49,710 bases of DNA. It comes from Thermoleophilia bacterium. Its GTDB lineage: Bacteria; Actinomycetota; Thermoleophilia; Gaiellales; Gaiellaceae. The notes below the pieces were generated by a model. That model was given only the letters and a program-made list of their open reading frames with translations. It had not been told where the DNA came from and did not search any database. Each line of letters begins with the position of its first letter. Position 1 is the stretch's first letter. A program made the translations under genes and the position numbers. Positions 5,266 to 9,385 of this stretch are shown one piece after another. Where the stretch lies: contig JAICME010000003.1 of the NCBI GenBank assembly GCA_025929425.1, positions 1-49,710 on the forward strand. The letters are read 5' to 3'.

Positions 5266-5856
5266 CTAACTGAAAGGCTTCGTGAACATGTCCGCGACCA
5301 CGACCAGCAGCACAGCGATGTCGACGCGCGCGACGAGAAGGATGCGGGCGATGGCCGCCTGCGTCTCGGGTGCAGCGGCACCCTTGTCCGCGAGTAGCGA
5401 CACGATCCGCCTCGACATAGGCGCTAGGACGCCGATGCCCGTCGCGAAGCTGAGCGCATAGCCGGTGAGGCCTATGTCGACCCATGTCGTGCCGAAGCCG
5501 ATCTCGTGCGAGTTGATCACCATCGTGATCCCCATCGCGAGCACGACGAGGCCTGCGGGCGCGAACAGCCTCTCGCCTGCAAACACCGCCTGACGGGCGA
5601 TGTGCGCCATCTCCTCCGGATCCTTCGCTCGCTCCGCTCTCAGCGCGAGAACCGTCAGGAGGATCCCGCCGCCGACCCAGAAGACGGCGACAACGACATG
5701 GATCAGCTTGAAGATCGCGAACGCGTGCGTAGGCGCGTCAGTCGTCTTCAGAGCGAACGTAAGGCCCAGAGCGAAAACGGCGGCGGCGATGCCCGCGGTG
5801 ACCCAGGCGGAGGTGCGGCTGGCACGTGGAGCGGCAGCGATGGGAGTCGTTTCCAT
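5266..5856 (-). CDS. DUF2269-like integral membrane protein
   Basis: A 196-residue protein with about four membrane helices: near residues 18-36, 48-68, 94-114 and 170-190, plus a weaker one near 125-145. The segment AIFKLIHVVVAVFWVGGGIL with a His in the helix is typical of DUF2269 / heme-exporter-like membrane proteins of unknown function. The start at ATG 5856 was chosen because the longer frame upstream runs through the 3' part of the peroxiredoxin gene in another frame and shows no membrane character. It follows the peroxiredoxin by 29 bp on the same strand and may belong to that operon. Confidence 0.7.
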   Translation of the reverse strand: METTPIAAAPRASRTSAWVTAGIAAAVFALGLTFALKTTDAPTHAFAIFKLIHVVVAVFWVGGGILLTVLALRAERAKDPEEMAHIARQAVFAGERLFAPAGLVVLAMGITMVINSHEIGFGTTWVDIGLTGYALSFATGIGVLAPMSRRIVSLLADKGAAAPETQAAIARILLVARVDIAVLLVVVADMFTKPFS

Positions 5857-5885: not shown

Positions 5886-6347
5886 CTACAAGGCTCGCGC
5901 CGCTGCGAGCAGCTCGTCGAGGTCGGGAAGCTCGCTCGTCTCGTACGCCCAAGCGCCGCGGATGACGCCGTCCACGTCGATCAGGAACGCGCTGCGCCGC
6001 GACACGTCGCGCATCCCGTTGTGCTCGAAGGAGACGCCGAAGCCGTGCGTCGCTTCCGCGTTCCAGTCGGAGAGGAGCGGGAAGTCGAGGTCGAGCGCCT
6101 GCATCCACGCGACGTGGGTGTACGGCGAGTCGCGCGAGATCGCGAACGGCTCCACGCCCGCGTCCTGCAGCTCCGCTCTCCTGTCACGCAGGAGCTCGAG
6201 CTCTGTCGTTCAGGTCGAGGACCAGTCGAAGAGGTAGAACAGCAGGAGCAGCGGTCGCTCGTGGAGGAGGTCGCCGATGCTCACACGCTCGCGCGGCGTC
6301 GTCCACACCACCGCTTCGAGCGGCGCGCTCTGCCCGATCTCGAGCAC
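5886..6347 (-). CDS. peroxiredoxin with an in-frame UGA (probable selenocysteine) at the peroxidatic site
   Basis: The frame from GTG 6347 to 5886 encodes 153 residues if the TGA at 6212-6210 (codon 46) is read as selenocysteine. The context is LFYLFDWSST-U-TTELELLRD, which is the AhpC/TSA peroxiredoxin active site with Sec in place of the peroxidatic Cys (S-x-x-U). Downstream sequence in the same frame continues the family fold: ISRDSPYTHVAWMQAL, FPLLSDWN, then SRRSAFLIDVDGVIRG with the conserved Arg. The protein has no cysteine at all, so without Sec there would be no catalytic residue. A two-part stem-loop with G in the apical loop begins just after the UGA. TAGGA lies before the GTG. The enzyme would reduce peroxides in the cytoplasm using an external thiol. 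The downstream half also has its own ATG (6155), which a gene caller may wrongly take as a start. The alternative is a recent nonsense mutation. Confidence 0.75.
6178..6212 (-). promoter_or_regulatory. candidate bacterial SECIS element after the UGA codon
   Basis: In mRNA sense, 15 nt after the UGA begins CTCCTG-CGTGA-CAGGAG, a perfect 6-bp stem with a 5-nt loop. A lower AGCTC/GAGCT stem is separated from it by an internal loop (3' arm ends a little beyond 6178). The apical loop starts 21 nt after the UGA and its second base is G, which meets the known bSECIS rules (loop roughly 16-37 nt downstream, a G among the first two loop bases). SelB would bind this to deliver Sec-tRNA. Confidence 0.6.
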
Positions 6348-6356
6348 GGGGCGATC

Positions 6357-7583
6357 CTACGCAGCGGCTGCCGACTCGGGCTCCGGCTCGGAGGCGACCT
6401 CCGTCGCCTCCGCGATCTCCCGCACGACCTCGACGATGTCGCGGTTCGCATTGAAGATGTGGAGCTGCCGGTCGGCGCCGTTGCCGCGGCTCAGGATCTC
6501 CTCGATTCCGGCCAGCTCCTCCTCCGACCCGAGGTCACGGGCGTGAGGCTGCAGCGTCTCGAGCGTTCGCCGCACGAGAGCGGCCACCGGCACCCGGTTG
6601 CGACGCCCGGTGTGGAGATCCATCACGGGCGCCGAGAGCCCATAGCGCGCCGCGAGCCACTTGTTCTCCGTCGTGAGGATGCGGTGGAAGGAGGGGATCT
6701 CCTCGCCGCGTTCGACGAGCTCCGCGTAGTGCTTGACGAGTGCCTGGCAGTACGCGGTGATCGCGACCACGTCCTCGAGCCGGGTGACGGCGTCGCAGAT
6801 CCGGATTTCGACCGTGCCGAGGCGCGGGTGGAGGCGGATGTCCCACCAGATGTGCGTGTAGTCCTGGATGCAGCCGGTCTTCTCGAGCTGGTTCACGACC
6901 CCCGCATAGTCGGCGTAGTCGCGGAAGCGCGGGGGCGGGCCGGAGCGGGGAAACGCGGCGAAGACCATGTGGCGCGAGGAGCGGAGCCCGGTCGGCTCGC
7001 CTCGCCAGAACGGCGAGCTCGCGGAGAGGGCGACGAGCTCCGTCAGGTGGGCGATCAGCCCGTTGACGACCTGGATCGCCTTTTCCGCGTCGTCGACCGC
7101 GACGTGGACGTGCATCCCGAAGATCAGCTCGCGCCTCGCGATGTACTGCATCTGGTCGACCATCGCGCGATAGCGATCCTTCGCGGTGATCCGCTGTCTC
7201 TCGAACAGCGAGAATGGGTGGGTGCCGGCCGAGCCCACGCGCAGCCCCTTCTCGCGGGCCACGTCGGTGACGTAACGGCGGATGCGGAGGAGCTGCTGCC
7301 GCACGCCCGCAGGCGTGTGACAGACCGGCGTCGCGACCTCGAGCACCGACTGCATCAACTCCGAGTTGATGCGCGGCTCGAGCTCGTGTCCCGCGACGGC
7401 GGCGAGCACCGTGTCGATGTGCTGGACGAGGTCGAAGGTCTCGCTGTCGAGGAGCATGTACTCCTCTTCGACCCCGAGCGTGTACGGGTCACTCTGGCCG
7501 AAGGCATGGTCCAGCACGCTGCCGCCGGGTGGGAACTGCGAACCCTTGCCCGTGATCGACGGGGGTATCAGCGAGTCGCTCAT
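6357..7583 (-). CDS. GCS2-family carboxylate-amine ligase (YbdK-like)
   Basis: A 408-residue ATP-dependent ligase of the glutamate-cysteine ligase type 2 family. The N-terminal YTLGVEEEYMLLDSETFDL is the metal/ATP-binding signature (GVEEE), followed by NSELMQSVLEVATPVC, GTHPFSLF, HVHVAVDD and a C-terminal LGTVEIRICDAVTRLEDVVA. Family members join an amino group to the gamma-carboxyl of glutamate; YbdK itself has weak gamma-glutamylcysteine synthetase activity. The gene overlaps the upstream VUT gene by 4 bp and precedes the Sec-peroxiredoxin by 9 bp, so it may supply a low-molecular-weight thiol to the peroxidase (inference). The exact substrate is not shown by sequence. Confidence 0.85.
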   Translation of the reverse strand: MSDSLIPPSITGKGSQFPPGGSVLDHAFGQSDPYTLGVEEEYMLLDSETFDLVQHIDTVLAAVAGHELEPRINSELMQSVLEVATPVCHTPAGVRQQLLRIRRYVTDVAREKGLRVGSAGTHPFSLFERQRITAKDRYRAMVDQMQYIARRELIFGMHVHVAVDDAEKAIQVVNGLIAHLTELVALSASSPFWRGEPTGLRSSRHMVFAAFPRSGPPPRFRDYADYAGVVNQLEKTGCIQDYTHIWWDIRLHPRLGTVEIRICDAVTRLEDVVAITAYCQALVKHYAELVERGEEIPSFHRILTTENKWLAARYGLSAPVMDLHTGRRNRVPVAALVRRTLETLQPHARDLGSEEELAGIEEILSRGNGADRQLHIFNANRDIVEVVREIAEATEVASEPEPESAAAA

Positions 7584-8194
7584 GCGGGGACCCTATCCCC
7601 GGCGTTTGCAGGAAGAAAGCGTCGGCCCAGCACGACGAGCGGAATCCCGATCACGACTGAGGACGCGATCTTGCCCACGAGCTGGCCGTTGAAGAAGTCG
7701 AGGCCGGACGACCCGAACGCGAGCACGAGGAACACGACGCTGTCGATCGGCGCGCTCGCCGCCGCCGAGACGAGCACCCGCAGGCTGTCGTGGACGCGGC
7801 CGCGCAACGGGGCGCCGATCAGGTTGTCGATGGTCTCCGAGGCGAGGAAGGCTACGAGGCTGGCGCCGACGATCCGCCAGGTCGAGCCGACGGCGCTGTC
7901 GAACTCCTGTCCGGGGAAGGCCGGGTGGGTGTGCACGAGCAGGGCGATGTAGCCGGCGAGGAGCGCCGAGCCGACGAAGCCGAGGCCGATCAGCAGCTGT
8001 GCGTTGACGGCTCCGTCGCGGCGCGTGGCGCCTGTGTGGTGCGCGAGCTGGACGAGTGCGAGCGCAACGCCGATCGAATAGACGCCGCCCGGGGCGTCGA
8101 GATGCGTGAAGGGGAGGCGGACGATCTTGCTCGCGCCGATCTGCGCCGAGAGGACCACGGCCACGTACAGGCCGGCGAGAACCGGCAGCCTCAT
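7580..8194 (-). CDS. VUT-family transporter (YhhQ-like)
   Basis: A 204-residue integral membrane protein with about six hydrophobic helices. The segments IGASKIVRLPF, GGVYSIGVALAL, GSTWRIVGASLVAFLASETIDNLI and SAAASAPIDSVVFLVLAFGS match the VUT/YhhQ family. That family includes queuosine-precursor transporters and proteins with proposed vitamin uptake roles. It lies in the minus-strand operon between RidA and GCS2 with 4-bp overlaps at both ends. No queuosine biosynthesis genes or preQ1 riboswitch were seen nearby, so the substrate is left open. Confidence 0.75.
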   Translation of the reverse strand: MRLPVLAGLYVAVVLSAQIGASKIVRLPFTHLDAPGGVYSIGVALALVQLAHHTGATRRDGAVNAQLLIGLGFVGSALLAGYIALLVHTHPAFPGQEFDSAVGSTWRIVGASLVAFLASETIDNLIGAPLRGRVHDSLRVLVSAAASAPIDSVVFLVLAFGSSGLDFFNGQLVGKIASSVVIGIPLVVLGRRFLPANAGDRVPA

Positions 8195-8565
8195 TCGGGG
8201 AGCAGCGCGTCCGCCTCGATCTCGACCTTCCAGGCGGGATCCAGCAGCCCGCTGATCACGAGCATCGACGTCGCGGGCATCGCTGAGCCGAACACCTCGC
8301 CGTGCGCGCGCCCGACGGCCTCCCAGTCTGAGGGGTCGACGATGAAGATCCGGGTGCGCACGACGTGCTCGGGCCCGGCATCGAGCTCGCGCAGCGCGTC
8401 CATGATGATCTCCAGGCAGCGCTTCGTCTGCTCGTACGGGTCGTCCGACGCGAGACCGACCGGCGCAGTGCCGCTCACGTACACGTGGCGCCCGTCGCGC
8501 ACCGCGCGCGAGTAGCCGACCGTTCCGGCGAAGGCCGAGATCGCGGGGACGGCGGCGCGGGCCAC
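8191..8565 (-). CDS. RidA/YjgF/UK114-family protein
   Basis: A protein of about 124 residues; the GTG at 8565 is chosen because the family fold begins there (VARAAVPAISAFAGTVGYSR) and the open frame further upstream has no homology-like content. Signatures are RAVRDGRHVYVSGTAPVG, EQTKRCLEIIMDAL, VVRTRIFIVDPSDWEAVGRAHGEVFG and VEIEADALLPE. RidA members deaminate reactive enamine/imine intermediates. The Arg of VRTRIFI corresponds to the conserved carboxylate-binding Arg. An AGGA lies very close to the GTG. It heads the operon RidA-VUT-GCS2-peroxiredoxin, divergent from the serine hydrolase at 8585. Confidence 0.85.
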   Translation of the reverse strand: MARAAVPAISAFAGTVGYSRAVRDGRHVYVSGTAPVGLASDDPYEQTKRCLEIIMDALRELDAGPEHVVRTRIFIVDPSDWEAVGRAHGEVFGSAMPATSMLVISGLLDPAWKVEIEADALLPE

Positions 8566-8584
8566 GTTCCTAGTATCCCGCGAG

Positions 8585-9385
8585 GTGGAGGCGTTGCGTG
8601 CGATCGACGGCTGGGACGCCGGTATGGCTGCCGCGGGCGTCGCGCGCGCGGAGGGCGTCGTCGCGACACACGGCTCGACGGACCGCGAGGTTCCCTGGGC
8701 TTCGGTGACGAAGGTCCTCACCGGCGTCGCCTTCCTCGTCGCGCTCGAGGAGGGGACGGTCGATCTGGACGAGCCGGCGGGCCCGCCCGGCGCAACGTTC
8801 CGGCACCTGCTTGCCCACGCCTCCGGTTTGCCGGTCGACGGCCCCGAGCCGATTGCCGAGCCGGGTCGGCGAAGGATCTACTCGAACACGGGGATCGAGC
8901 TCGCCGCACAGCTGCTCGAGGAGCGTGCCGAGATGCCGTTCGCCGATTACTTCGCCGCGGCGGTGTCACGGCCGCTCGGCCTCGCCGGCCGCCTCGCGGG
9001 CTCTCCCGCGCACGGCTTCCGCGGTCCCCTCGGCGACCTCCTGGCGCTGGGTCGAGAGCTGCTCGCGCCGACCCTCGTGGCCGCCGAGACGCTCGCCGAA
9101 GCGACCACCGTCCAGTTCCCGGGCCTCTCCGGCGTTCTCCCCGGCTTCGGTCGGATGGAGCCGAACGACTGGGGGCTCACGGTCGAGCTTCGAGACGACA
9201 AGGCGCCGCACTGGACCGGCTCCTTGAACGGGCGGAGCACCTTCGGCCATTTCGGCGCGAGCGGCACGTTCCTCTGGGTCGATCCGGAGGAGGGTCTCGC
9301 GTGCGGTGTCCTCACGGATCAGCCGTTCGGGGACTGGGCGAAGGAGGCCTGGCCGGCTCTCAGCGATGCCATCCTGAGGAGTTAG
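8585..9385 (+). CDS. beta-lactamase-family serine hydrolase (class C / PBP4* type)
   Basis: A 266-residue protein beginning at a GTG only 20 bp from the divergent RidA start. It has the three class C/D-alanyl peptidase motifs: S40-V-T-K43 (SxxK nucleophile), Y99-S-N (YxN) and FGHFGASG near residue 222 standing in for HxG/KTG. The helix region FRHLLAHASGLPVDG is typical of the family. There is no signal peptide, so it probably acts in the cytoplasm as an esterase or peptidase rather than as a periplasmic beta-lactamase. It is shorter than the usual 350-400 residues. Substrate unknown. Confidence 0.85.
   Translation: MEALRAIDGWDAGMAAAGVARAEGVVATHGSTDREVPWASVTKVLTGVAFLVALEEGTVDLDEPAGPPGATFRHLLAHASGLPVDGPEPIAEPGRRRIYSNTGIELAAQLLEERAEMPFADYFAAAVSRPLGLAGRLAGSPAHGFRGPLGDLLALGRELLAPTLVAAETLAEATTVQFPGLSGVLPGFGRMEPNDWGLTVELRDDKAPHWTGSLNGRSTFGHFGASGTFLWVDPEEGLACGVLTDQPFGDWAKEAWPALSDAILRS

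Follow-up and report, generated by a model that had tools for sequence, protein, structure and literature searches.

Evidence for a selenocysteine-encoding peroxiredoxin lineage across an order of uncultured actinobacteria

A peroxiredoxin gene in the 49,710-nucleotide stretch of DNA analysed here (hereafter the window) almost certainly encodes a genuine selenoprotein, with selenocysteine (Sec) inserted at UGA codon 46. The original prediction, that of a probable selenoprotein with UGA-encoded Sec at the active site, is strongly supported by the selenocysteine machinery of the genome, by orthologues, by the selection acting on the gene, and by a SECIS-type hairpin; from these lines, we infer actual Sec insertion.

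A single in-frame TGA and its conservation among orthologues

The gene lies on the minus strand, a detail that the original prediction did not give. Translation from position 6347 to 5886 with the TGA taken as a residue yields MLEIGQSAPL...FDWSST-U-TTELELLRDR...LAAARAL (Table 1). This frame is broken by one TGA only, at FDWSST-U-TTE, and it contains no cysteine, in agreement with the earlier remark that no other cysteine occurs in the protein. A domain search assigned the product to AhpC-TSA (PF00578, E = 1.4e-23), with homology on both sides of the TGA; frame and domain match thereby confirm that the codon joins two halves of one peroxiredoxin at the peroxidatic site. Standard gene calling leaves a 45-residue stub and a headless open reading frame (5886..6155), as had been foreseen. 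We gave no evidential weight to the openness of the frame around the TGA: in the six frames of the GC-rich window, 124 TGAs have at least 40 open codons before and at least 80 after them. An open frame alone is therefore uninformative, and the case for a selenoprotein rests on the two-sided homology and on the orthologues.

Table 1. Positions of the peroxiredoxin gene, its recoding elements, and its neighbours within the window.
Feature	Position	Strand	Remarks
Predicted Sec peroxiredoxin gene	5886..6347	minus	GTG start at 6347, TAG stop at 5888-5886; 153 residues including the predicted Sec46
In-frame TGA, codon 46, peroxidatic residue, read as probable selenocysteine	6212-6210	minus	TGA in 72/78 orthologues
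Candidate bacterial SECIS apical hairpin, CTCCTG-CGTGA-CAGGAG	6194-6178	minus	immediately downstream of the TGA; loop at a spacing of 21 nt
GCS2/YbdK-family carboxylate-amine ligase	6357..7583	minus	directly upstream; recurrent neighbour
Vut_1 (queuosine-precursor-type transporter)	7580..8194	minus	near the gene in only 3/77 relatives
RidA-like protein	8191..8721	minus	recurrent neighbour
DUF2269 membrane protein	5266..5856	minus	downstream; neighbour in 11/77 relatives

A lone stop in an otherwise good frame of a draft metagenome assembly could also be an ordinary stop codon, i.e., a nonsense mutation in a pseudogene, or a sequencing or assembly error for TGC. Across 129 genomes of the window's order, most of the clear orthologues had exactly one TGA inside the match. 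After removal of duplicates, 78 distinct sequences, all from this order, were readable at codon 46, where the original prediction had called for a comparison of homologues: 72 have TGA, five have TGC, one has TGT, and nothing else occurs, so that an in-frame UGA stands where homologues have Cys. The 3' half, whose decay among close relatives would have spoken against a selenoprotein, is free of decay in all 78 sequences. Measured against the closest relative, which shares 90% identity, dN/dS comes to approximately 0.12 before and approximately 0.10 after the TGA. As both values are well below 1, both halves are under purifying selection, which is at least as strong on the 3' half as on the 5' half. 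An ordinary stop is thus highly improbable, given that the same TGA recurs across genera, in 72 distinct sequences that come from separate assemblies, that neither side has decayed and the 3' halves are intact, and that the hairpin described below is maintained at synonymous sites.

In a sample of the class, 79 of the 80 genomes with a match at E ≤ 1e-18 belonged to the window's order, and at the corresponding position more distant relatives elsewhere in the phylum carry either TGA or Cys. A phylogenetic tree built without the Sec residue placed the Cys genes at three positions within the Sec clade, an arrangement that takes a minimum of three Sec-to-Cys events. More distant peroxiredoxins from other families of the phylum (loci L143-L151) share the peroxiredoxin fold with a TGA at the peroxidatic position; they differ from the window's protein in sequence (about 30-36% identity) and fall outside its clade, and simple folding revealed no obvious strong hairpin in several of them. 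Two further loci, L129 (genome G083) and L130 (G085), for which tblastn first put a TGA at codon 46, proved to be misaligned paralogues and were excluded from all counts. They represent a second, divergent peroxiredoxin-like gene with an in-frame TGA (FDFTGSxEGG-TGA) and a shifted active-site alignment, possibly another type of selenoprotein. A plasmid search returned distant redoxins only, all below 60% identity.

SECIS-type hairpin and selenocysteine machinery

The hairpin downstream of the TGA has a 6-bp stem and a 5-nt loop (CGUGA, in which a G and then a U stand near the beginning) at a distance of 21 nt from the UGA. These dimensions lie within the bSECIS model, which describes a stem of 4-16 bp, a loop of 3-9 nt with a G in the first two positions, and a spacing of 16-37 nt from the UGA (PMC13188914). 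All six pairs are intact in 67 of the 72 TGA genes and in none of the six Cys genes (Fisher p = 1.8e-6, indicative only, as the sequences are related and relatedness is uncorrected). Among 14400 synonymous recodings, the six-pair hairpin occurred in 91 (0.6%). The codons underlying the hairpin (L-L-R-D-R) would otherwise be free to vary and yet are nearly frozen at synonymous sites in the TGA genes, with CTC in 70/71, CTG in 72/72, CGT in 69/72, GAC in 72/72, and AGG in 71/72. This last codon is used for Arg almost throughout although six Arg codons exist, and Cys genes mostly carry CGC or CGG for the Arg residues of the region instead. Folding of the window's single copy was weakly better than that of shuffled sequences (z = −1.3); as this energy is not decisive, the support for the hairpin lies in the comparison across genes. 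Rfam contained no relevant family around the hairpin.

The window belongs to a draft genome of 2.7 Mb (contig C18; completeness 86%), in which we searched for selA, selB, selC, and selD as suggested by the original prediction. All four were found in this one draft: a tRNA-Sec (selC) with anticodon TCA above the Rfam cut-off, selB and selA adjacent to each other on contig C120, and selD. Because the selB search at 1e-50 also matches other elongation factors, a hit was counted only if it exceeded the curated cut-off or came very close to it. Among the 25 TGA-carrying genomes with a completeness of at least 90%, selA or selB was detected in 23; the corresponding figure for other genomes was 10 of 20 (p = 0.002). 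Neither selA, selB, nor tRNA-Sec was detected in G032 and G072, two carriers of the TGA gene (loci L036 and L087) represented by drafts of 91% completeness, for which missing sequence may be the cause. The Cys-type genomes G037 and G038 are without selA and selB, yet have kept the tRNA-Sec, and three others (G058, G061, and G082) have kept both selA and selB. Sec machinery alone hence does not dictate the presence of TGA.

The readability of TGA in this frame would also be explained by a reassignment of the codon or by general read-through in the lineage, e.g., as Trp, rather than by Sec-specific decoding. Such a change is very improbable: some orthologues use TGA as their terminal stop, the replacing residue is always Cys and never Trp, and both Sec machinery and the SECIS hairpin are present.

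Further support for Sec decoding comes from two formate dehydrogenase alpha genes of the window's genome (L131 on contig C55 and L132 on contig C48), in which the Sec site is occupied by an in-frame TGA (DSCNRT-TGA-HAPSVVGL and ENQARI-TGA-HSSTVPSL). Downstream of each TGA is a hairpin whose loop, GGUCU or AGUCU, is of the GUCU type.

Fold, active site and proposed function

An AlphaFold model with Cys in place of Sec gave a confident peroxiredoxin (pLDDT 96.6), with Bcp4 of S. solfataricus (TM 0.93) and AhpE of M. tuberculosis (TM about 0.9) as closest folds; a profile search agreed with these matches, and the predicted fold is that expected of the AhpC-TSA/Redoxin domain (PF00578). Archaeal Bcp/PrxQ proteins (2cx3/4gqc from A. 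pernix and 3hjp, the S. solfataricus Bcp4) are the best solved relatives both in the profile search (E = 6.8e-32) and in fold (TM 0.93). They are Cys enzymes with about 29-31% identity to the window's protein. The 1-Cys enzyme AhpE (Rv2238c) has the same length and fold at about 30% identity and differs in using Cys where the window's peroxiredoxin would use Sec. AhpE does not use a resolving cysteine, and the window's protein likewise has none, as it belongs to the 55 of 72 TGA gene products without any Cys.

Invariant positions of the alignment include the Sec site and Arg118, and Glu49 (U+3) is nearly invariant. At U-3, the 72 TGA genes encode Ser (64) or Thr (8), and all of them thus display the T/SxxU active site by which the Prx selenoprotein family is recognised (PMC1794560). 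The extended motif PxxxTxxU, described as highly conserved and not as defining (PMC13188914), is incomplete in the window's gene, which has Leu at U-7 and Ser at U-3. Leu is in fact the rule at U-7, where Pro is the usual residue (Leu 69, Pro 2, and Ile 1 among the 72 TGA genes).

The product is probably a 1-Sec, AhpE/PrxQ-like peroxidase that follows a 1-Sec peroxidase cycle. At UGA codon 46, the ribosome would receive Sec-tRNA(Sec) from SelB bound to the downstream hairpin, giving rise to the full 153-residue peroxiredoxin with selenocysteine as the peroxidatic residue. The selenolate would then reduce peroxide and be converted to selenenic acid, which an outside reductant, either a low-molecular-weight thiol or a redoxin, would restore; the need for such a reductant is expected because the protein has no cysteine and thus no resolving residue. 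Peroxidase activity and the identities of reductant and substrate are predictions from sequence in this scheme. An altered chemistry on a peroxiredoxin fold, e.g., that of a reductase or a sensor, is an unlikely alternative for this selenoprotein. It would fit the replacement of Pro by Leu at U-7, the missing resolving Cys, and the recurrent tie to RidA and the GCS2 ligase; however, the lineage retains Ser/Thr at U-3 and Glu at U+3 as well as the invariant Arg118, and the structural match to AhpE and Bcp4 is close, which argues for the peroxidase.

Sec peroxiredoxins as such were already known in bacteria, as the original prediction had stated: they were described long ago (PMC1794560), and 91 of them were reported from 78 organisms (PMC5029168). 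The window's gene shares with these T/SxxU proteins, such as PrxU of Eubacterium acidaminophilum, the AhpC-TSA fold, the peroxidatic Sec, and a bSECIS within the coding region. In contrast to them, it belongs to a separate lineage, in which most members have Leu for the usual Pro, and is without any Cys. Its score against the NCBIfam PrxU model NF040737 is 49.8 bits, far from the cut-off of 270, and none of the NCBIfam models attains its cut-off with this protein. Literature searches that combined the window's order with selenoproteins yielded no relevant paper. The kind of protein is therefore known; the order-wide Sec-peroxiredoxin lineage, with its unusual active-site Leu and its recurrent neighbourhood, was found in none of the papers searched and in no NCBIfam model.

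Gene neighbourhood and implications

Upstream of the peroxiredoxin gene, the GCS2-type ligase comes first, separated by 9 bases, and the transporter-like and RidA-like genes lie further off. The context of GCS2 ligase and RidA, pointed out in the original prediction, is real and recurrent: the ligase is nearby in 32 of 77 relatives and RidA in 29 of 77, Cys types included, and both counts are lower bounds because the flanks are short for many relatives. The arrangement of RidA, GCS2 ligase, and peroxiredoxin (6357-8721 in the window for the neighbours) is found across genera, also with the Cys forms. If the GCS2-type ligase were to make a gamma-glutamyl thiol, it would be a natural partner of the peroxiredoxin. 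More speculatively, the Sec peroxiredoxin subfamily, RidA, and the ligase might form an antioxidant module, in which the ligase would make or recycle the thiol responsible for reducing the oxidised selenium, and to whose chemistry the Leu-for-Pro exchange would be suited; we regard this as a doubtful proposal.

An order of uncultured actinobacteria is thus predicted to carry a Sec-dependent peroxidase widely, in a gene that ordinary gene calling splits in two. The three nested Sec-to-Cys reversions, each accompanied by loss of the hairpin, represent a natural experiment on selenocysteine loss, and they also inform which bases of the bacterial SECIS are constrained.
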